Positions 3,326 through 12,846 of a DNA stretch of 64,000 nucleotides are shown one piece after another (positions within the stretch are counted from its first letter, which is position 1; each line of letters starts with the position of its first letter). The notes beneath the pieces were generated by a model. That model ran no database searches. It had not been told where the DNA came from and saw only the letters and a list, made by a program, of their open reading frames with translations. This DNA is from Microbacterium proteolyticum (GTDB lineage: Bacteria > Actinomycetota > Actinomycetes > Actinomycetales > Microbacteriaceae). The position numbers were made by a program, and so were the translations under genes. The stretch lies in contig NZ_JAUSZZ010000001.1 in NCBI RefSeq assembly GCF_030818075.1, positions 372,001-436,000 on the forward strand. The letters run 5' to 3'.

Positions 3326-3343
3326 CATAGATGTGCGTCTATG
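3326..3343. promoter_or_regulatory. ArsR operator 2, CATAGA-N6-TCTATG
   Basis: The same half-sites and spacing as operator 1, in the 73-bp gap before the next arsC. TATGGT (3340-3345) overlapping its right arm can serve as the -10 of a second promoter. The two arsenic transcripts therefore probably share one repressor. Confidence 0.75.
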
Positions 3344-3371
3344 GTTTGAGGTGTTCGAGGAAGGAACACTC

Positions 3372-3782
3372 ATGACCGAGAAGCCCACCGTCCTGTTCGT
3401 CTGCATCCACAACGCGGGTCGCTCGCAAATGGCCGCCGGCTACATGCGCGCCCTCTCCGGCGGTGCCGTCGACGTGCTGTCCGGCGGCTCCGAGCCCGGC
3501 GACCAGATCAACCCGATGGCGATCGCAGCGATGGCGGAGGAGGGCATCGACATCTCCCAGGCCGTCCCGACGCTGATGACCACCGAGCAGGTGCGCGAGT
3601 CGGATGCCGTGATCACGATGGGCTGCGGGGACGTTTGCCCGATCTTCCCTGGCAAGCGTTACGAGGACTGGGCCCTCACCGACCCCAAGGGCAAGAGCCT
3701 GGAGGAGGTCCGCCCGATCCGCGACGACATCAAGGCCCGCGTCGAGGCCCTGCTCGCTGAACTGCTGCCCGCAAAAGTCTGA
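3372..3782 (+). CDS. arsC: Arsenate reductase ArsC, thioredoxin-type
   Basis: A 136-residue stand-alone ArsC that reduces arsenate to arsenite. It has C11-x5-R17 (VCIHNAGRSQ), the resolving cysteines C85 and C89 in MGCGDVCP, and the DWALTDP acid loop. This three-cysteine arrangement is that of thioredoxin-coupled ArsC (S. aureus pI258 type, C. glutamicum ArsC1'). The ATG at 3372 is preceded by GAGGAAGGA at a good distance. It opens the rightward unit arsC-arsC-trxB under operator 2. Confidence 0.92.
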   Translation: MTEKPTVLFVCIHNAGRSQMAAGYMRALSGGAVDVLSGGSEPGDQINPMAIAAMAEEGIDISQAVPTLMTTEQVRESDAVITMGCGDVCPIFPGKRYEDWALTDPKGKSLEEVRPIRDDIKARVEALLAELLPAKV

Positions 3783-3787
3783 CGACG

Positions 3788-4459
3788 ATGAGCGACTTCA
3801 CCAACCGCCGCCCCCTCCCGGGGCTGGTGTACCCGGAGGCGTACCTCGCCCGGCTCGCGGATGAGCTGAGCCGGAAGTTCACCGGGATCTTTGCGACCGA
3901 GACCGTCGAGCGGTACGTGCTCGAGTCCTACACCGGCCTGCTGCGCACCTCGAAGGTCAAGGCGCACCTCGCCAGTCAGACCGTCCGGTTCGCGACCGAC
4001 CGTCTGACCGCTCTCGCTCAGGCGAAAGGCGCGATCTTGCACGACGTGCCGGAGGTGCTGTTCATCTGCGAGCAGAACGCCGGCCGCTCGCAGATGGCTG
4101 CCGTCATCACTGCCTCCCTCTCCGGCGGCCGTGTGCACGTGCGCTCCGCCGGCTCCATGCCGGCCGCCGAACTGAACCCGTCCGTGGTCGAAGCGATCAC
4201 GGAGCTGGGTCTCGATATCGCCGAGGCGTTCCCCAAGCCCCTCACCGATGACGTGGTGCAGGCCGCCGACATCGTGATCACGATGGGCTGCGGCGACGCG
4301 TGCCCGATCTACCCGGGCAAGACCTACCAGGACTGGGACCTCACCGACCCGGCCGGCCTCCCGCTCGAGGAGGTCCGCACCATCCGCGACCAGATCACCA
4401 CCAAGGTCGAGGCGATGCTCGCGACCCTCGGCGTCACCCCCACAGGAGTCCCCTCATGA
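3788..4459 (+). CDS. arsC: Arsenate reductase with N-terminal three-helix domain
   Basis: 223 residues. Residues 1-82 are a helical domain (LADELSRKF...VERYVLES...[10 protein letters not shown]) matching the linker segment of the ArsR-ArsC fusion. Residues 88-223 are ArsC with C94-x5-R100 and C168/C172 in MGCGDACP. Length and layout fit C. glutamicum ArsC1', which takes electrons from thioredoxin. The start is 5 nt after the preceding arsC stop, and the stop overlaps trxB (ATGA). The helical part may dock the reductase or stabilise a monomer (inference). Confidence 0.9.
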
Positions 4460-5442
4460 GCAGCATCGAGAACGTCGTCGTCGTCGGCTCCGGCCCCGCC
4501 GGTTACACCGCCGCCATCTACCTCGCCCGCGCCGGCCTCGCCCCGATCGTGCTCACCAGCGCCGTCGAAGCCGGCGGCGCCCTCGTCAACACCACCGAGG
4601 TCGAGAACTTCCCCGGCTTCCCCACCGGGATCATGGGCCCGGACCTGATGGAGAACATGCGCGCCCAAGCCGAACGCTTCGGCGCCCGCATCATCTACGA
4701 CGACGCCACCGCCCTCGAGCTCACCGGCCCGGTCAAGACCATCACCACCGGCTACGGCGACACCTACCGGGCGCACACCGTCGTCCTCGCGATGGGTTCC
4801 GCCTACCGCAAGCTCGGCATCCCCGGCGAGCCGCACCTCACCGGCCACGGAGTGTCCTGGTGCGCGACCTGCGACGGATTCTTCTTCAAGGGCCAGGACA
4901 TCGCCGTCGTCGGCGGCGGCGACTCCGCGCTCGAAGAGGCCATGTTCCTCACCCGCTTCGCCAACAGCGTCACCCTCATCCACCGCCGCGACTTCCTCCG
5001 CGCGTCAAAGATCATGCAGGACCGCGCCCTCGCCAACCCCAAGATTCGCGTGCTTTGGGACACCGAGGTCACCGAAGCGGTCGGCACCGACCGCCTCACC
5101 GGCCTGCGCCTGCGAAACACAATCACCGGTGAGGAGTCCGAGCTGGCCGCGACGGGCCTGTTCATCGCGATCGGCCACGACCCCCGCTCCGAACTCGTCC
5201 TCGGCCAGGTCGACGTCGACGCCGACAACTACGTCCGCGTCGACTCACCCACCACCCAGACGAACCTCCCCGGCGTCTTCGCCGCCGGCGACCTCGTGGA
5301 CCACCGCTACCGCCAAGCGATCACCGCAGCCGGCACCGGCTGCGCAGCCTCCGCCGACGCCGAGCACTACCTCGCCGCCAACGGCCTCGCCAGCTACGCC
5401 CAGCAGGAGACAGCCGAACTGGACGACACCCTCACCCGGTAG
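4456..5442 (+). CDS. trxB: Thioredoxin reductase
   Basis: A 328-residue FAD/NADPH enzyme of the low-Mr thioredoxin reductase family. It shows GSGPAG (11-16) for FAD, the redox pair C136-A-T-C139 in WCATCDG, a GGGDSA NADPH site near 153-158, and the C-terminal [13 protein letters not shown] motif. ATG 4456-4458 overlaps the stop of the upstream arsC. Placement in the ars operon indicates it keeps thioredoxin reduced for the three-cysteine ArsC proteins. No thioredoxin gene lies beside it, so it must use a trx encoded elsewhere. Confidence 0.92.
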
Positions 5443-5463
5443 GTGCTCCGCGGGTGATGAGCG

Positions 5464-5814
5464 TTAGACGCCGGTGAGCATCCCCGCGAGGGAATCGAGC
5501 GCACCCGGGACCAGGGAGAAGTACGCCCACGTGCCGCGCTTTTCGCGGGCCAGAATCCCAGCGTCCACGAGGATCTTCAAGTGGTGTGAAACCGTGGGCT
5601 GACTCAGGCCGATTGGCTCCGTGAAGTCGCACACGCACACCTCGCCCGAGCTGCTCGAGGCGACGATCGACACCAGGCGCAGCCGCGCCGGATCTGCCAC
5701 CGCTTTCAGCGCCCGCGCCAGCAGCTCTGCACCCTCAGCGCTCAGCGGCTCGCGCGCGAGCGGCGCGCAGCACTCAGCCACCGCCGCGGTCAGAGTCAGC
5801 TCGATCATCGCCAT
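5464..5814 (-). CDS. arsR: ArsR/SmtB arsenite-responsive repressor
   Basis: A 116-residue winged-helix repressor with the metal-binding CVCDF motif (C60, C62), the DNA-recognition helix LSQPTVSHHLKIL, and an extra N-terminal pair C15-C16 that could supply a third thiolate. The open frame reaches 5964, but ATG 5812-5814 is preceded by AAAGGTGG and is the natural start. It is convergent with trxB (21-bp gap) and divergent from the flavoprotein gene, which it probably represses with itself. Its cysteines are intact, unlike the fusion repressor at 2393. Confidence 0.9.
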   Translation of the reverse strand: MAMIELTLTAAVAECCAPLAREPLSAEGAELLARALKAVADPARLRLVSIVASSSSGEVCVCDFTEPIGLSQPTVSHHLKILVDAGILAREKRGTWAYFSLVPGALDSLAGMLTGV

Positions 5815-5840
5815 GCATCCACCTTTCCACACATTGACAG

Positions 5841-5888
5841 ACATCGATATAGCGGGGCAGACTCGGTTCATCGATGTTCGTCGATGTT
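5841..5888. promoter_or_regulatory. Candidate ArsR operator region with ATCGAT half-sites
   Basis: The region between arsR and the flavoprotein gene holds ATCGAT at 5843-5848 and 5870-5875, plus the direct repeat TCGATGTT at 5871-5878 and 5881-5888. TTGACA at 5834-5839 could be a -35 element. The motif differs from the CATAGA sites, suggesting a separate regulon for this ArsR. Confidence 0.4.
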
Positions 5889-5902
5889 GAGGAGTGCACC
5901 TG

Positions 5903-7222
5903 ATGACCATGCTGCTGACCGTCCCACCCCGCACCGACGAGCGCCGCCTCACCGGCCTGCCCATCGCGGTAATCGGCGCCGGCCCCGTCGGGCTCGCCGC
6001 CGCCGCGCAGCTGCTCGAGCGGGGCCTCGACGTCGTGGTCTACGAAGCCGGCGACAGCGCCGGGGCTGCCGTGCGGCAGTGGGGGCACACCCGCCTGTTC
6101 TCCCCGTGGGCGTACCTGGTCGACTCCGCCGCTGCACGCCTGCTTGACGCGGCTGGCTGGGAGGCGCCCGCCGCGAAGAAGCTGCCCACCGGGCACGAGT
6201 TCGTCCGCGACTACCTCACGCCCCTCGCCGGGACACCGCAGCTCGCCCCGGTCATCCGGTACCGCTCCCGCGTCACCGCCGTGACCCGCGAAGGCATGGA
6301 CCGCACCCGCTCCACCGGCCGCGCCGCGACCCCCTTCCTGCTGCGCCTAGACACTCCCGAAGGCGTCACCGACGTCACCGCCCGCGCGGTCATCGACACC
6401 TCCGGCACCTACTCGACACCCAACGCCCTCGCCTCGGCCGGCCTTGACCCGATCGGCACCGCCGAGGTCGCCGAGCACCTCAGCCTCGCGCTGCCCGACG
6501 TCCTCGGCGCCGACCGCGCCCGCTTCGCCGGGAAGAGCGTGCTCGTCGTCGGCGCCGGCCACTCCGCCGCGAACACCCTGATCAAGCTCGCCCGACTCGC
6601 CCGCGAAGAACCCGGCACGAGCATCACCTGGGCGATCCGTGGCACCAGTCCGCTGCGCGTCTTCGGGTCAGGCGAAGACGAGCTCGAGGAACGCGGCAAG
6701 CTCGGTGGCACCGTCCACCAGCTCGTCCGCGACGGCGCGATCACCCTCCTCGATCGCTTCGAAATCGACCGCCTCGAGAAGACCACCACCGGCCGGGTCG
6801 CCGTGCTCGGACGCCGCCGCAAAGGGCGCGAGAGCGTCGAGGCCGACGTCGTCGTACAAGCCACCGGGTTCCGACCCAACCTCGACATGCTGCGCGAGAT
6901 CCGCGTCTCCCTGGACGAGATTGTGGAAGCGCCCCGCGCCCTCGCGACGCTCATCGACCCGAACCTGCACTCCTGCGGGACTGTCGACCCCCACGGTGTC
7001 GCCGAGCTCGCCCACCCCGAGCCAAACTTCTACATCGCAGGCATGAAGTCCTACGGCCGCGCCCCGACTTTCCTACTCGTCACCGGTTACGAGCAGGTCC
7101 GCTCCATCGCGGACGAGCTCGCAGGCGATCACGCCGCCGCCCGCCGCGTGCAGCTCGTCCTCCCCGAGACCGGCGTCTGCTCCACCGAGATCGGATCCGC
7201 CGGAGGGAGCTGCTGCTCATGA
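5903..7222 (+). CDS. FAD/NAD(P)-dependent oxidoreductase of ars clusters (ArsO-like)
   Basis: 439 residues with an N-terminal dinucleotide-binding site (GAGPVG, 25-30), a second Rossmann motif VGAGHSA, and ATGFRPN, as in flavin monooxygenase-like proteins. Homologues in actinobacterial ars operons are called ArsO, but their reaction is not settled. The C-terminus carries C426 and the pair C437-C438 (GGSCCS), a possible arsenite or thiol-exchange tail. ATG 5903 is preferred over GTG 5894 because TTGAGGAG ends right against the GTG but 9 nt from the ATG. The stop overlaps arsN1 (ATGA). Confidence 0.75.
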   Translation: MTMLLTVPPRTDERRLTGLPIAVIGAGPVGLAAAAQLLERGLDVVVYEAGDSAGAAVRQWGHTRLFSPWAYLVDSAAARLLDAAGWEAPAAKKLPTGHEFVRDYLTPLAGTPQLAPVIRYRSRVTAVTREGMDRTRSTGRAATPFLLRLDTPEGVTDVTARAVIDTSGTYSTPNALASAGLDPIGTAEVAEHLSLALPDVLGADRARFAGKSVLVVGAGHSAANTLIKLARLAREEPGTSITWAIRGTSPLRVFGSGEDELEERGKLGGTVHQLVRDGAITLLDRFEIDRLEKTTTGRVAVLGRRRKGRESVEADVVVQATGFRPNLDMLREIRVSLDEIVEAPRALATLIDPNLHSCGTVDPHGVAELAHPEPNFYIAGMKSYGRAPTFLLVTGYEQVRSIADELAGDHAAARRVQLVLPETGVCSTEIGSAGGSCCS

Positions 7223-7722
7223 CTGCCGTCCGGGCGATGCTTCCCGAAGACTGGAAGCAGGTCGAGGCAATCTATATCGAAGGGATCGCCACCGGACACG
7301 CGACCTTCGAGGCCGAACCGCCCACCTGGGAAGAATTCGACGCCGGCAAGCTGGACGTGGGGCGCCTGGTCGCCGTCGACGGCGACCGCATCCTCGGCTG
7401 GACGGCGCTTTCCCCGGTCTCGGCACGACCCGTTTACTGCGGAGTGGTTGAGCACTCCGTCTACATCGCCGTGACCGCCCACGGTCAAGGCCTGGGGACG
7501 CTGCTACTCGACGCCCTACTCACCGCCACCGATGACGCGGGCCTCTGGACAATCCAATCGAGCATCTTCCCCGAGAACATCGCAAGCCTCGCCCTGCATG
7601 ACCGCGCTGGCTTTCGCCGCGTCGGCACCCGTAACCGCATCGCTTACATGACCTACGGACCGGCGGCTGGCTCATGGCGCGACACAATTCTCATCGAACG
7701 ACGCAGTCCGGCCGTTCCGTAA
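7219..7722 (+). CDS. arsN1: ArsN1-family N-acetyltransferase
   Basis: A 167-residue GNAT close to phosphinothricin acetyltransferases, with the GIATGHATFEAE substrate region and the GQGLGTLLLDALL acetyl-CoA loop. ArsN1 enzymes acetylate the alpha-amino group of the arsenic antibiotic arsinothricin, and some also accept phosphinothricin. ATG 7219 overlaps the flavoprotein stop, so the two are translationally coupled. This suggests the island handles an organoarsenical as well as inorganic arsenic. Confidence 0.8.
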   Translation: MTAVRAMLPEDWKQVEAIYIEGIATGHATFEAEPPTWEEFDAGKLDVGRLVAVDGDRILGWTALSPVSARPVYCGVVEHSVYIAVTAHGQGLGTLLLDALLTATDDAGLWTIQSSIFPENIASLALHDRAGFRRVGTRNRIAYMTYGPAAGSWRDTILIERRSPAVP

Positions 7723-7763
7723 CGGGATTGTTCAGCGGATGCTTGGGCGGTCGAACCGGCGAG

Positions 7764-8153
7764 TCAGCCCGCCGAGGCTAGCTCGTGCGCATCCGCAGGA
7801 AGATAGATGAACGACTGCGGAACCGCGGGTCGTGGTGTGAAATCGGTGAGCGCGAGGGAGTCTGGGAAACGCTCCGCTGTTGCTACGACAATGGCGACAG
7901 CCGAGACGGCATCGCCGTAATAGGCGAAGAACGCGTCTTTCTCGATGACGCCGACAGCGCCGAACCGTTCCCAGATGCGCGCCGGGGTGTCGGTGATCAT
8001 CTCGCTAATCGTGAACTGGCCGATGACCTGGCTCGTGGGGGCAGTGGCGTAGATGAGGACAGTGCGGATGTCCTCGGCAAGGCGTCGTTTGCGGAACTCG
8101 ACGCGCTTGCGACCGTCGACGATTGCTTCCGCCCAGCGTTGATGGATCGACAT
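7764..8153 (-). CDS. ASCH-domain protein
   Basis: 129 residues with the ASCH signature G-x-K/R-x2-E-x-R near residue 14 (DGRKRVEFRKRR) in an all-beta, PUA-like fold expected to bind RNA or modified nucleosides. An upstream in-frame start exists at 8186, but ATG 8151-8153 shares one base with the stop of the PIN-GNAT gene (TGATG), so the two are coupled. Some ASCH proteins are nucleases or amidohydrolases; no such residue set is evident here. Function unknown. It could be the regulator or antitoxin of the PIN partner (inference). Confidence 0.75.
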   Translation of the reverse strand: MSIHQRWAEAIVDGRKRVEFRKRRLAEDIRTVLIYATAPTSQVIGQFTISEMITDTPARIWERFGAVGVIEKDAFFAYYGDAVSAVAIVVATAERFPDSLALTDFTPRPAVPQSFIYLPADAHELASAG

Positions 8154-9682
8154 CAGAGCGACTCGGTCAGCTGCTGCTGCACCCATGCGACTCCCTCCTC
8201 GTCTTTCACGCGAACGACCGACTGCGGCCATGATGTTACGACCCTACGTTCCACCAGTTCCGTCAACGGCCAGGGCTGCTCGATGAACCGGTCCTGTCGG
8301 AAGAGGATCGTCAAAACGGCCTTCCCCTCTTGGTGCATCGCGGCGACCTCGGCGGCTGAGTACACAGTTCGCTTGAAGGACAGTTCGATGGTGGCTATCG
8401 GGTCAGCTGAGCGGTGTGAGCGCTCCGCAACACCCACCGCAACGATCGAACCGTCTCCTCGAACCCCGCCCTGGCTGCGATAGAACAACAGCGTCGACCC
8501 CGGTGGGATCTCCTTGGTGGGGCTGCGGCAGAGGTAGGCCTTCCGTATGGCGTTGCCGTGCGCTTTCGGCGTTGAGAAGGTATCGGCGAGCATCGTCGCC
8601 CCCATCGTGCCGACGACCGTCGCGTCAGGGAACAAGTCGTCGTACCACTGGGGTGTGATCGGGATCACAAAAATCGGGTTGCCTGGCTGGATTGCGGGTG
8701 GCCCGTAGGCGATGTGGAAGTCCAGGCCGTTCAAATGTGACGCGTTAGGCGGATCTAGGTGCTTGAGCCAGATCTGTTCGTCCGGGTCGCTTCCCTTGTC
8801 GGTGACGTAGGCGAACCCGAAGTCGGTCAGAAACTCGAGGAGTCGTTCGTGTCGGGTGTTGACCTCGACGAACATGTCGCCGGGGCGGCCCGGTTCGGCC
8901 GCGGCCCAGCGCAATACGGCCTTGAGAAGCAACTCGCCGTATCGTTTACCGCCGGCCGTATCACCAACCTTGAACGTCGACAATTTGATCGCTGGTCGAC
9001 CTCGGTCCACTGGGTGCGTGTCCATCATCTTCACGAGCGCGAGTGCCTCGTACCGCGAGCTGTTGTCGCGAATGACCCATGCGCGTCGAGCGAGCGAATC
9101 CTTCTTGACCTTCGCGATCCAGGTGTCGAACCCCGGGTAGTCCTCGCGAAGTGAGTTAAAGAACGTCTGGGACGTATCGAGCTCGTTGGTCCGCAGGCGC
9201 TCGACCATCGGGGGTGGCGGAGGCGCGTCCGGATGCCAGGCGGCGAGCTGCGCAGCTGCCTCACCGGTTCGCAAGACTCGGTGCTCCAGCCCCAGCCGCG
9301 CTGCACGCTTTCGGAGCCGGCCGTCGTTCGTGATGAGGAAGTGCACGCCCTCCGCGTGCAGAGCGGCGAGGATGCGCGCGTCTCGCTGATCGTTCGGTCC
9401 TGCGGGATCGGGGAATACGTCCCGCACATCGGCCGGCACATCGACCTCGGCCAAGGTTATGTACTTCTTGTACGCAGCCAGATTCTGGGCGCGATGAACC
9501 GGATCACTCGTCTCGGCAAGGTCATCTCGCGTCGCCGGATGCACGAAGACGTGGTGTCCATTCTGGGCCGCGAGTCTCAGGAAACTACTTACCGCGGGGT
9601 GGGCGTCCTCAAGCTCGCCGTTGAATGGCTCAGCCGCAATGATGACGTTCGAATCGATGAGGAACGACATCTCGGTTTGCAT
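8153..9682 (-). CDS. PIN-GNAT-PUA/EVE-like three-domain protein
   Basis: 509 residues. Residues 5-150 read as a PIN ribonuclease: LIDSN (D10), D53/D54, DQRDARIL (D98/D101) and ITNDGRL (D120) supply the acidic cluster. Residues about 170-310 read as a GNAT fold with the acetyl-CoA loop KVGDTAGGKRYGELLLKAV. Residues about 320-509 are beta-rich and PUA/EVE/ASCH-like (GSTLLFYRSQGG, SIVAVGVAE). ATG 9680-9682 follows GGGGGGAC; ATG 9670 is an alternative. It forms a two-gene unit with the ASCH gene, next to a transposon. The layout suggests an RNA-directed toxin, RNA-modification or defence factor, but no function is known to me. Confidence 0.7.
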   Translation of the reverse strand: MQTEMSFLIDSNVIIAAEPFNGELEDAHPAVSSFLRLAAQNGHHVFVHPATRDDLAETSDPVHRAQNLAAYKKYITLAEVDVPADVRDVFPDPAGPNDQRDARILAALHAEGVHFLITNDGRLRKRAARLGLEHRVLRTGEAAAQLAAWHPDAPPPPPMVERLRTNELDTSQTFFNSLREDYPGFDTWIAKVKKDSLARRAWVIRDNSSRYEALALVKMMDTHPVDRGRPAIKLSTFKVGDTAGGKRYGELLLKAVLRWAAAEPGRPGDMFVEVNTRHERLLEFLTDFGFAYVTDKGSDPDEQIWLKHLDPPNASHLNGLDFHIAYGPPAIQPGNPIFVIPITPQWYDDLFPDATVVGTMGATMLADTFSTPKAHGNAIRKAYLCRSPTKEIPPGSTLLFYRSQGGVRGDGSIVAVGVAERSHRSADPIATIELSFKRTVYSAAEVAAMHQEGKAVLTILFRQDRFIEQPWPLTELVERRVVTSWPQSVVRVKDEEGVAWVQQQLTESL

Positions 9683-9794
9683 CGGTCCGTCCCCCCACCG
9701 TCAGCGAGAGCATCTCACGCCCGTGAGCAACTCCTGCGGAACTGCGCGGCGCTCCTATGAGTATCGCCTCACGAAGCTTCCGCTCCAGGGTCCG

Positions 9795-9818
9795 CTCAGA
9801 AAACAGTAGCTTTCTGAG
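9795..9818. repeat. Inverted repeat upstream of the resolvase (possible res subsite)
   Basis: CTCAGAAA (9795-9802) and TTTCTGAG (9811-9818) pair around 8 nt. Related GAGACG/CTCAGG words recur at 9815, 9861 and 9904. In Tn552- and Tn3-type elements the resolvase acts at a res site made of three short inverted repeats beside its gene, and this 268-bp gap (9683-9950) is the only place for one here. Nothing else was recognised in the gap. Confidence 0.4.
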
Positions 9819-9950
9819 ACGCACCGACCGGTCACCGTTCCACTCTCAGCGAATCCGGATTCTCAGGACGTCGGCTGTCTCGAAAAGACGTCTTGCTGTG
9901 TTTCGTCTCAGGAGGGGCCGCGGAGGGCGTTTTCGAGTCAGAATGGGCTC

Positions 9951-10548
9951 GTGAGGCTTCTGGGGTATACGCGGGTGAGTACGTCGAGTCAGGACGCGCA
10001 GTTGCAGCTCGATGCGCTCGTAGCCGCCGGGGTGCAAAAGCGCGACGTCTTCGCGGATGTCACCTCGGGGAGCAAGGCCGCGATCGAGCGGACCGGGATG
10101 AGGAAGCTCCTCGAGTACGCCGAGGACGGCGACACCGTCGTCGTGTGGCGAGTCGACCGCCTTGGCCGATCCCTCATCGACGTGCTGAACACCGTGAATC
10201 TGCTGCGCGAGCGCGGCGTGCAGGTGCGGTCTATTTCGGATGGCATCGATCCGTCGACGTCGACGGGCCGGCTGATGTTGAACATGCTCGCGACGCTCGC
10301 GGAGTACGAGCGGGAGCTCATCGTGGAACGTGTCAACGCCGGCATAGCGGCCGCTCGGGCGAACGGGACCCGGTTCGGTCGGCCTCTGTCGGACCCGGTC
10401 GTGATCGCGGACAAGCTCGCAATCGCCGCGGATGCGCGAGCGCGCGGGCGCACCGCTGAGGACGCTGCTCGTCTCGTCGGGTGGAGTCGCGCGACCCCTC
10501 TACCGCCACCAGCAGGCCCACGCGGCCCGCGAGAGCGCAGCGATGTAG
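9951..10548 (+). CDS. Serine resolvase of the transposon, frameshifted near the C-terminus
   Basis: The N-terminal catalytic domain has YTRVSTSSQD (nucleophile S10), the VWRVDRLGRS arginines and the EYERELIVERV helix, ending in a small helix-turn-helix. The GTG start at 9951 gives MRLLGYTRVST. As written, the frame runs on to 10742 with a proline/arginine-rich tail overlapping the transposase. Removing one C from the CCCC run at 10494-10498 restores SRATLYRHQQAHAARES and a TAG at 10546-10548, 6 nt before the transposase ATG. That is clearly the ancestral end. Either the final helix-turn-helix is lost or the base is a sequencing error. Confidence 0.85.
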
Positions 10549-10554
10549 CGGCTT

Positions 10555-11937
10555 ATGGATGGCCTCGAGCGGTGGCGGATCCTCCAACTTCACGTGGAAG
10601 ATCAGGTCCCCCTCGCGGCCATCGCCCGCGAGAGCGGCATCGGCACGCGGACGCTACAACGCTGGCATCAGCTCTACAAGAAACACGGGCTCGCAGGACT
10701 CGACGACACTGCACGAAGAGACAAGGGCAGCCGGCGCACTGACCCCGCAACCGTCGCCACCATCGAGCGGCTCGCCCTGACCCGGCCTCGTCCGTCAATC
10801 GCGACGCTGCATCGACTCATCGTCGAAGAGTGCCTACCCGAGAGTAGGCCGGCGCCGAGCTACGCGACCGTCCGCCAGATCGTGCAGGCCCTCGACCCCG
10901 CACTCGTCACCCTCGCGTTGGAGGGTCCCGCGTCCTACCGCAATCGTCACGAGCTGGTGTTCCGCCGTCGTGCGGAACGGCCGAATCAAATCTGGCAGGC
11001 CGACCATACCGAACTCGACATCCTCATCATCGGCGCGAACGGGAAGCCCGACCGCGCCTGGCTGACCACCGTCATGGATGATCACTCCCGCGCGATCTGC
11101 GGCTACATGGTCTTCACCGGAGCGCCCTCGTCACTGAACACCGCTCTCGCGTTGCGGCAGGCGATCTGGCGAAAGACCGACCCTGCGTGGGCGATGTGCG
11201 GAATCCCCGACGTGCTGCACGTCGACCACGGCTCCGACTTCACCAGCCACCACCTCGAGCGCACCGCCGTCGAGCTGCACCTCCGGCTCATCTTCTCGAC
11301 TGTCGGCCGGCCCCAGGGGCGCGGCAAGATCGAGCGGTTCTTCGGCACTATCAACACCGAAGTCCTCCCGACCCTCCCCGGCCACCTCGGCTCCGGGAGT
11401 CGCAACCCGCAGCCCGTGCTCGATCTCCCGGGCGTGGACCGAGCGATCGGCGCCTTCATCGCCACGTACAACCAGCGCACCCATCAGGCGCTCGGTGTCT
11501 CCCCGCGCGACGCATGGGTCGCGGACGGTTGGCTACCCCGCATGCCCGACACCCTCGACGAGCTCGACGGCCTGCTGCTCACCGTCCCCACGCATCGGAC
11601 CGTGCAACGAGACGGCATCCACTTCCAAGGCCAGCGCTACCTCGCGCCCACCCTCGCCCCGTTCGTCGGACACACCGTCACCATCCGCTACGACCCCCGC
11701 GACGTCTCCGAGATCCGCGTCTACGACCACGACACCTTCGTCTGCGTCGCCGTCGACGAAGCCCACCCCAACACCCGCCTCAGCCTCCGAGACATCGAAG
11801 CCGCCCGCCGCGCCCGCCGCCACGAACTCCGCCGCACCATCAACGACCGCATCCCCACCATCGCCCACCGCGAACAACCCCACCTCGCGGACCCGACCCC
11901 ACCCAAGCAACCACTCCGCACCTACGAGGAGGAGTGA
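10555..11937 (+). CDS. TniA-like DDE transposase with Mu-transposase C-terminal domain
   Basis: 460 residues. Residues 1-60 form a helix-turn-helix (LAAIARESGIGTRTLQRWHQLY), followed by the RNase H-fold core with D150 (QADHTELD), D224 (VDHGSD) and E260 (GRGKIERF), the DD35E spacing of TniA, TnsB and IS481-like enzymes, then a beta-barrel domain (GIHFQGQRYLAPTL). It cuts and joins transposon ends in partnership with the AAA ATPase that follows. The stop overlaps that gene (TGATG). Confidence 0.9.
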   Translation: MDGLERWRILQLHVEDQVPLAAIARESGIGTRTLQRWHQLYKKHGLAGLDDTARRDKGSRRTDPATVATIERLALTRPRPSIATLHRLIVEECLPESRPAPSYATVRQIVQALDPALVTLALEGPASYRNRHELVFRRRAERPNQIWQADHTELDILIIGANGKPDRAWLTTVMDDHSRAICGYMVFTGAPSSLNTALALRQAIWRKTDPAWAMCGIPDVLHVDHGSDFTSHHLERTAVELHLRLIFSTVGRPQGRGKIERFFGTINTEVLPTLPGHLGSGSRNPQPVLDLPGVDRAIGAFIATYNQRTHQALGVSPRDAWVADGWLPRMPDTLDELDGLLLTVPTHRTVQRDGIHFQGQRYLAPTLAPFVGHTVTIRYDPRDVSEIRVYDHDTFVCVAVDEAHPNTRLSLRDIEAARRARRHELRRTINDRIPTIAHREQPHLADPTPPKQPLRTYEEE

Positions 11938-12746
11938 TGACCCAGAGCTTCATCGTCACGAAGGAACACCGCCGCTTCACCGAATTCGCGAACGCGGTGA
12001 AGAAAGAACGCACCATCGGCATCTGCCACGGTGACGCCGGAGTCGGAAAGACCAACTCCGCCCGCCGCTACGCCAACTGGGACACCCTCGAGCCCTTCAT
12101 CACCGCGTGGGGCCCGCGGAGCGAGGACGACGCGAAACATTACGCGCTCGCGCATCGTTCCCGCACCGTCTTTTACACACCCGAAGTGCTGCCGCGACCC
12201 AGGGACCTCATGCAAGAGATCAGGAGATGGCGGGCCAAAGTCGGCATCTGCATCGACGAACACCTCCGCACCATCGGGAAAGTCACCGGCGTGAACACCG
12301 CCGACACCACGCGGTGGGTTCAACTGCTCATCGTCGACGAAGCCGAGCGCCTCACGCCCACCGCGCTCGAGCTACTCCGAGACGAACATGACCGAACCCA
12401 TCTCGCGATCATCCTGATCGGCATGCCCGGCATCGACCACCGCTTCCGCCACTACCCCCAGCTCTACAGCCGCCTCGGCTCCTCCCACCGCTACCGCGCC
12501 CTCGGCCGCGACGAACTCCTCTTCGTCCTCGACCGACACTGGAAACGCCTCGGACGCACCCTCAACCCCGACGACTTCACCGACGCCCAAGCCGTCGCCG
12601 CCATCGAACGCATCACCCGCGGGAACTTCCGCCTCCTCGAGCGGCTCTTCCCCCAGATCAACCGCATCCTCAAGATCAACGAACTCGAGACGATCACCGA
12701 CGACGTCGTCGAAGCCGCCGCCAGCGTCCTGGTCATCGGAAGCTGA
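11937..12746 (+). CDS. TniB-like AAA ATPase, transposition protein
   Basis: 269 residues with the Walker A motif GDAGVGKTN (32-40), Walker B LLIVDEAERL and a sensor region LIGMPGIDHRF, as in TniB/MuB/TnsC-type ATPases that select target DNA and activate the transposase. ATG 11937-11939 overlaps the transposase stop and is preceded by GAGGAGGAG. It is the last gene of the element. No TniQ gene follows, which is usual for IS481/Tn552-like subsets but not for full Tn5053. Confidence 0.88.
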   Translation: MTQSFIVTKEHRRFTEFANAVKKERTIGICHGDAGVGKTNSARRYANWDTLEPFITAWGPRSEDDAKHYALAHRSRTVFYTPEVLPRPRDLMQEIRRWRAKVGICIDEHLRTIGKVTGVNTADTTRWVQLLIVDEAERLTPTALELLRDEHDRTHLAIILIGMPGIDHRFRHYPQLYSRLGSSHRYRALGRDELLFVLDRHWKRLGRTLNPDDFTDAQAVAAIERITRGNFRLLERLFPQINRILKINELETITDDVVEAAASVLVIGS

Positions 12747-12846
12747 CCGGCGCCACCGAACGATCACAGAGCACCGCCATGAAGCTCGCAACTCCACAGC
12801 GCGACTTTCCGCGCCGCGCACGGGCTCGGCTCACGGACGCGTTGGG

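Follow-up and report, generated by a model that had tools for sequence, protein, structure and literature searches.

The gene pair and its transposon block

The window, a stretch of 64,000 nucleotides from the genome of Microbacterium proteolyticum (a single contig of 3.77 Mb), carries two overlapping genes on the minus strand. The larger gene (8153..9682) encodes a protein of 509 aa with a PIN domain at about residues 5-150, a GNAT domain at about 157-310, and an EVE/PUA-like domain at about 320-509. The smaller gene (7764..8153) encodes an ASCH protein of 129 aa, and its start overlaps the stop of the larger gene by one base (TGATG). An earlier reading of the bare sequence (the sequence-only reading) had proposed both this overlap and the domain order; both are borne out, the latter by PIN_3 and GNAT profiles, an AlphaFold model (pLDDT 86.5, pTM 0.84), and fold matches, with the PIN domain assigned from its profile and conserved acids. 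The adjacent genes match the paired PADLOC-DB models PDC-M11A (PDLC04421; 614.9 bits) and PDC-M11B (PDLC04425; 142.5 bits), respectively.

The GNAT fold, expected from the sequence-only reading, is backed by fold matches, and its kin include the toxins TacT, AtaT, KacT, and GmvT as well as the RNA cytidine acetyltransferases NAT10 and TmcA (Foldseek). The PIN domain, likewise expected, is recognized by the PIN_3 profile in 28 of 41 homologues of the large protein; no PIN chain was found among the 16 PDB-sequence matches (E ≤ 1) of the large-protein profile A1 or among the matches listed in two fold searches (50 rows each), where only GNAT and ASCH chains were present. The PIN domain is thus a prediction from profiles and conserved acids. 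The GC3 values of the pair are 0.68 and 0.76, and those of 43 of the 55 other ORFs, in a list itself filtered on GC3, are at least 0.80. Comparison with a second copy (locus L002, Microbacteriaceae bacterium VKM Ac-2855) indicates purifying selection on both genes. The pair is confirmed as a real and intact member of a known, experimentally obscure family.

The transposon that had been noticed next door is present. A 5-kb block (7760..12800) is common to the window and L002 at 89.8% identity over 5,052 columns, with differing flanks, and holds, besides the pair, three genes of the transposon. These lie on the plus strand and are a serine resolvase gene (9951..10742; Pfam Resolvase 3.4e-43), a DDE transposase gene (10555..11937; rve 1.4e-13 and Mu-transpos_C 5e-22), and a gene for an AAA_22 ATPase, the TniB-like partner of the transposase (11934..12746; Pfam AAA_22 1.6e-17), whose start is approximate, being set by analogy with copies of about 270 aa (the mechanical ORF begins at 11187). 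The right terminal inverted repeat TGTGGAGTTGCGAGCT lies at 12783..12798 on the minus strand and agrees with the element ends in L002 and L066; no left repeat was found on the plus strand of the window within 4 mismatches of 16. The block is a transposon remnant with the pair as cargo, and its window copy lacks one end.

Arsenic-resistance genes abut the ASCH stop, and the immediate neighbours of the pair are an ArsN-like GNAT gene and the resolvase gene. The arsenic-resistance cluster extends over 3333-7722 and so reaches the block where this is truncated; we take its genes to encode phosphatase-type reductases, ArsR, a flavoprotein, and the ArsN-like GNAT.

Other copies of the element give a fuller view of its ends. 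The inverted ends of the L002 element (48 nt, 81%) lie at 6888..12831 and enclose the block with the pair and a deaminase-ASCH fusion. No target-site duplication was seen for this element and more end-like and resolvase copies occur nearby, so nested elements are likely in L002. A related resolvase/DDE/AAA element with other cargo (L066:94-10457) is bounded by inverted ends of 107 bp that are 88% identical. It also has a 9-bp direct repeat, and is the only copy in which such a repeat was sought and seen. Counting partial matches and the window's genome, 25 of 249 family genomes contain DNA that matches the transposase and ATPase genes. At E ≤ 1e-20, the large protein is found in only one of these 249, the window's own, and in 3 of 396 phylum genomes (the window's included); it also occurs in 28 of 72,556 plasmid records and in 14 of 50,697 phage records. 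In the 10 other element copies (L065-L074) no match was found to the large protein, to the ASCH profile, or to the sister protein described below; hence the pair is no part of the conserved core of the element, and the element is commoner than this cargo.

Earlier descriptions of the family

The sequence-only reading had considered the layout to be an undescribed system, and this is ruled out by three sources. First, the window genes match both PDC-M11 models over nearly their full length, with no difference in layout found; PDC-M11 is itself a phage-defence candidate only, and the term was not found in the literature searched. Second, Bell, Wolf and Koonin described (PIN)-GNAT-EVE fusions with an ASCH gene in almost all operons, predicted a toxin-antitoxin or defence role for these modules, and already proposed aminoacyl-tRNA acetylation for their GNAT, none of the modules being characterised at that time (Bell et al., 2020; PMC7641849). 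The window pair has the PIN, GNAT, and EVE order and the neighbouring ASCH gene of this class. An AAA_17 ATPase, frequent but optional in the class, is not recognised by Pfam beside the pair. The pair also shares its block with transposition genes, and the passages of that paper matching transposon terms make no mention of this for the class.

Third, the GenBank record of Escherichia phage PhiR47_2 (PV340567.1) annotates a homologous GNAT-EVE/ASCH pair as GevT toxin and GevA antitoxin. Like the window pair, it consists of a large gene followed by an overlapping ASCH gene (overlap at 5019-5041 of L010), and it matches the same PADLOC models (443 and 173 bits); unlike the window pair, it lacks the PIN domain and resides in a lambdoid phage. 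The DNA of GevT/GevA is found at 99% identity or more in 274 of 5,426 E. coli genomes, and every match spans 80% of the pair or more. The toxin and antitoxin names are annotations of the record, and they suggest that an experimental study exists; searches of the literature for GevT with phage, and for GevAT with phage and toxin, found no use of the names.

The toxin, RNA-targeting, or defence theme of the sequence-only reading is supported. The family spans bacteria, archaea, and phages, and neither experimental work nor a mechanism for it was found in the literature searched. Passages from three further papers (PMC10853773, PMC12839542, and PMC12707154) do not deal with the window pair. In the archaeal phage psiM100, the PIN-GNAT-EVE gene ORFD overlaps the ASCH gene ORF5, and the record marks an inserted fragment which covers most of ORFD. 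Type II GNAT toxins such as AtaT, TacT, KacT, and GmvT share the GNAT fold of the window protein, but the latter is fused to PIN and EVE domains and has an altered cofactor loop; the partner is a ribbon-helix-helix antitoxin (DUF1778) in the former and an ASCH protein in the window. The layout is hence not new, and what is added here are the pairing counts, the residue survey, the transposon block, and a sister architecture.

Pairing and conserved residues

The survey of homologous gene pairs called for by the sequence-only reading covered 33 loci beyond the window (5 genome contigs, 2 further genomes, 3 viral contigs, 3 phage records, and 20 plasmid records), taking in 20 of the 28 plasmid matches and 3 of the 14 phage matches. 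The loci belong to Actinomycetota, Pseudomonadota, Bacillota, Bacteroidota, Campylobacterota, archaea, and phages. An ASCH gene (profile A2) adjoins the large gene in 32 of the 33, the remaining contig (L014) ending inside the large gene; thus none of the 32 loci with a full flank has a large gene without ASCH. In 31 loci the ASCH gene is on the same strand and within 100 nt, downstream in 22 and upstream in 9. In the last (L039) the ASCH gene lies at a distance of 501 nt, on the opposite strand and behind an ATP-binding gene. The 9 loci with an upstream ASCH gene are all alphaproteobacterial, and five of them have a longer ASCH ORF (268-310 aa, stop to stop) with an extra domain upstream. Four of these five are annotated as helix-turn-helix and are followed by an AAA ATPase gene, in line with the description of the class (Bell et al., 2020; PMC7641849). 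The upstream and longer ASCH ORFs would fit a regulator as well as an antitoxin.

The sister architecture is GNAT-PIN-GNAT-EVE. Genes of this kind, encoding about 675 aa and overlapping or adjoining an ASCH gene, were found at L043:4207-7262, L047:4764-7549, L048:2970-5548, and L050:4928-7455, and five more (L075-L079) came from the 249 family genomes; the ASCH gene is directly behind in 9 of 9 loci. The second GNAT, which gave no profile match, is assigned from position and sequence. It is degenerate, and in the N-terminal GNAT the residues R85 and G88 of the loop are conserved in almost every row (the row P0245 duplicates L050). PADLOC models match the four tested loci weakly, at best with 41 bits, and the wordings GNAT-PIN, double GNAT, and two GNAT are absent from Bell et al. 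(2020; PMC7641849).

In the genus, 6 of 118 relatives have ASCH genes, at 7 places. Two of these (G000 and G697) belong to PIN-GNAT-EVE genes and four (G700, G640, and two in G693) to GNAT-PIN-GNAT-EVE genes. The ASCH gene of G678 (L049) was at first considered to be a solo gene, and this was dropped as the 100-aa ORF just before it shows kinship with the large protein of the sister type (E 5e-6); L049:4609-5339 holds a sister-type ASCH gene behind what is apparently a remnant of its large gene. A long ORF with a histidine-rich start also lies upstream of the ASCH gene in L049.

Residue conservation was followed in 73 rows of the large protein, 65 of which have PIN; the homologue search supplied 41 rows and the loci 32. 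Some rows are near-duplicates and the rows are not independent (e.g., L005/L006, L003/P0029, and L010/L022). L001, L007, and L023 (the window itself), L024 (the same contig as L003), and L014 (cut by the contig end) were left out of the alignments. The PIN acids are kept across homologues, as proposed for D10, D54, D101, and D120: D10 in 65/65, D or E at position 54 in 65/65, D98 in 60/65, D101 in 64/65, and D120 in 65/65. In the EVE domain, N377, Y383, and G395 are present in 73/73 and Y401 in 69/73. In the GNAT domain, K233, T236, and G249 are found in 73/73 and K238 in 72/73, with K233 and T236 the same in PIN-bearing and PIN-less proteins.

The cofactor loop of this GNAT is unusual. The motif [RQ]xxGx[GA], which we take to be that of the canonical acetyl-CoA pyrophosphate loop, occurs in 0 of 73 rows, and the first glycine, placed by alignment to Naa50, is replaced by a basic residue in 71 of 73 (R34 K33 H4). 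The ArsN-like GNAT of the window also has a non-matching first letter in its loop, and keeps both glycines. Position 285, which would be the site of the general-acid tyrosine before the GF motif if the mapping to AtaT is correct, is never Tyr (L61 F5 I4 M2 V1 of 73). Acetyl transfer by this GNAT is therefore uncertain. Aminoacyl-tRNA acetylation may still be its activity, but the loop departs from the usual motif in all 73 rows.

The ASCH alignment (62 rows, to which the homologue search contributed 30 and the loci 32) has seven invariant residues, namely K16, E19, R21, Y35, P39, P112, and Y117. By structural offset, K16, E19, and R21 occupy the positions of Lys21, Thr24, and Arg26 of YqfB, an N4-acetylcytidine amidohydrolase whose alanine variants at these three positions are reported as inactive (PMC6972931). 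The partner ASCH keeps the Lys and the Arg but has Glu in place of the catalytic Thr24 in 62/62, and so lacks the Thr-Lys-Glu triad of YqfB under this mapping. An ac4C-deacylating antidote of the YqfB type is thereby made unlikely. In ZmASCH, a ribonuclease of Zymomonas mobilis, Tyr47 is a nucleic-acid-binding residue (PMC5615036); Tyr47, Gln127, and Ser128 have their counterparts in Y35 (62/62), Q113, and S114 (61/62), whereas that of Lys53 is not conserved (position 41: S20 G17 Q11 K8 R4 of 62).

A candidate RNA-directed toxin with a predicted antidote

The reading that we favour, at about even chances, is that the window pair is a mobile toxin-antitoxin system or an abortive anti-phage device, with RNA as its predicted target. 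It is preferred because the records of the closest named relatives call them toxin and antitoxin, and because mobile elements carry the pair; toxicity, RNA as the target, and neutralisation by the ASCH protein are what we infer. Also in its favour are the shared PADLOC models, the constant ASCH partner, the low GC3, the kept PIN acids, the toxins among the GNAT kin, the ASCH counterpart of the nucleic-acid-binding Tyr47, and L049, where ASCH persists behind a mere 100-aa ORF, while a large gene lacking ASCH was seen in none of the 32 loci with full flank. The large protein would be the RNA-attacking toxin, held in check by the ASCH protein. The EVE domain may bind a specific RNA, possibly a modified one; the GNAT may acylate this RNA or its charged amino acid, and the PIN domain may cut it. 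The last would be an added effector, since the GevT/GevA pair does without PIN. The ASCH protein might block the toxin by binding it or by shielding the same RNA, rather than by a YqfB-type deacylation, which is not expected of it. The departures in the GNAT loop and at the catalytic Thr position of ASCH argue against a plain copy of the AtaT or the YqfB mechanism, and the GNAT chemistry may be unusual. The toxin could be released when phages attack or the element is lost, and this would also help to maintain the transposon cargo. If toxin and antidote are true, they would explain the carriage by the transposon and represent a toxin joining RNA-modifying and RNA-cutting domains. The residues expected to matter are D10, D120, K233, T236, and N377 in the large protein and K16, E19, R21, and Y35 in ASCH.

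A modification-dependent, restriction-like defence is a possible, rather unlikely, account of the same genes. Here the EVE and ASCH domains would read modified bases of incoming DNA or RNA and bring the PIN and GNAT domains to it, ASCH being no antitoxin but a subunit for specificity or regulation. In other systems, EVE and ASCH domains do bind modified bases. The longer ASCH ORFs (5 of 32 loci, four of them helix-turn-helix by annotation) have a domain upstream, and PIN-GNAT-EVE genes are reported to be often near type I RM systems, as is an ASCH-HsdS fusion to occur (Bell et al., 2020; PMC7641849). However, the Pfam-scanned neighbours in the window are arsenic-resistance and transposition genes with no restriction genes among them, and GevT/GevA were deposited as toxin and antitoxin.

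The constant pairing, together with the intact sites, would also fit a two-subunit enzyme, which as a housekeeping RNA modification or repair enzyme would write with its GNAT, trim with its PIN, and read with its ASCH subunit. The presence of NAT10 and TmcA among the GNAT kin is in favour of such an enzyme, which we nevertheless consider improbable, as a housekeeping role is hard to match with occurrence in a single family genome and with transposon, plasmid, and prophage settings. A counter-toxin, in which PIN destroys RNAs acylated by phage GNAT-EVE proteins (an idea of Bell et al., 2020), is very improbable, for although PIN-less GNAT-EVE/ASCH pairs occur on phages or prophage-like plasmids and GevT/GevA recurs among E. 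coli genomes as counted above, the PIN version keeps the conserved GNAT residues of the PIN-less one (K233 and T236) and should then be toxic too.

Three forms of the core are seen, GNAT-EVE, PIN-GNAT-EVE, and GNAT-PIN-GNAT-EVE, and an ASCH gene accompanies every one. A more detailed scheme, which we hold to be speculative and unlikely, is that of a transposon-borne RNA weapon in which the basic-loop GNAT writes an acyl mark, EVE reads it, PIN cuts, and the K..E..R ASCH caps the mark. As part of this scheme, ASCH would be a YqfB-like pocket with Thr now Glu, which caps the mark rather than removes it.

Further ASCH genes occur near some of the pairs. A second, YqfB-like ASCH gene was found on the minus strand in four rhizobial plasmid loci (L017:7497-8018, L030:4530-5048, L032:4524-5042, and L037:4524-5039, the last by a match of the second-ASCH profile); in the first three it has KxxTxR and is convergent to the PIN-GNAT-EVE gene. 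For the L017 protein, a comparison with PDB gave no matching chain at E ≤ 1. The deaminase-ASCH fusion (L002:11992-12729) adjoins the pair inside the same inverted ends. These genes had been considered as support for cytidine acetylation and were dropped, since the deaminase half of the fusion is closest to blasticidin-S deaminase (E 1.7e-36) and detoxification of a nucleoside antibiotic is as likely. In Lachnospira eligens, a GNAT-EVE/ASCH pair is closely followed downstream by a gene (L042:4832-6712) for a large protein of 626 aa with a deaminase domain, which could be an anti-phage cytidine deaminase.
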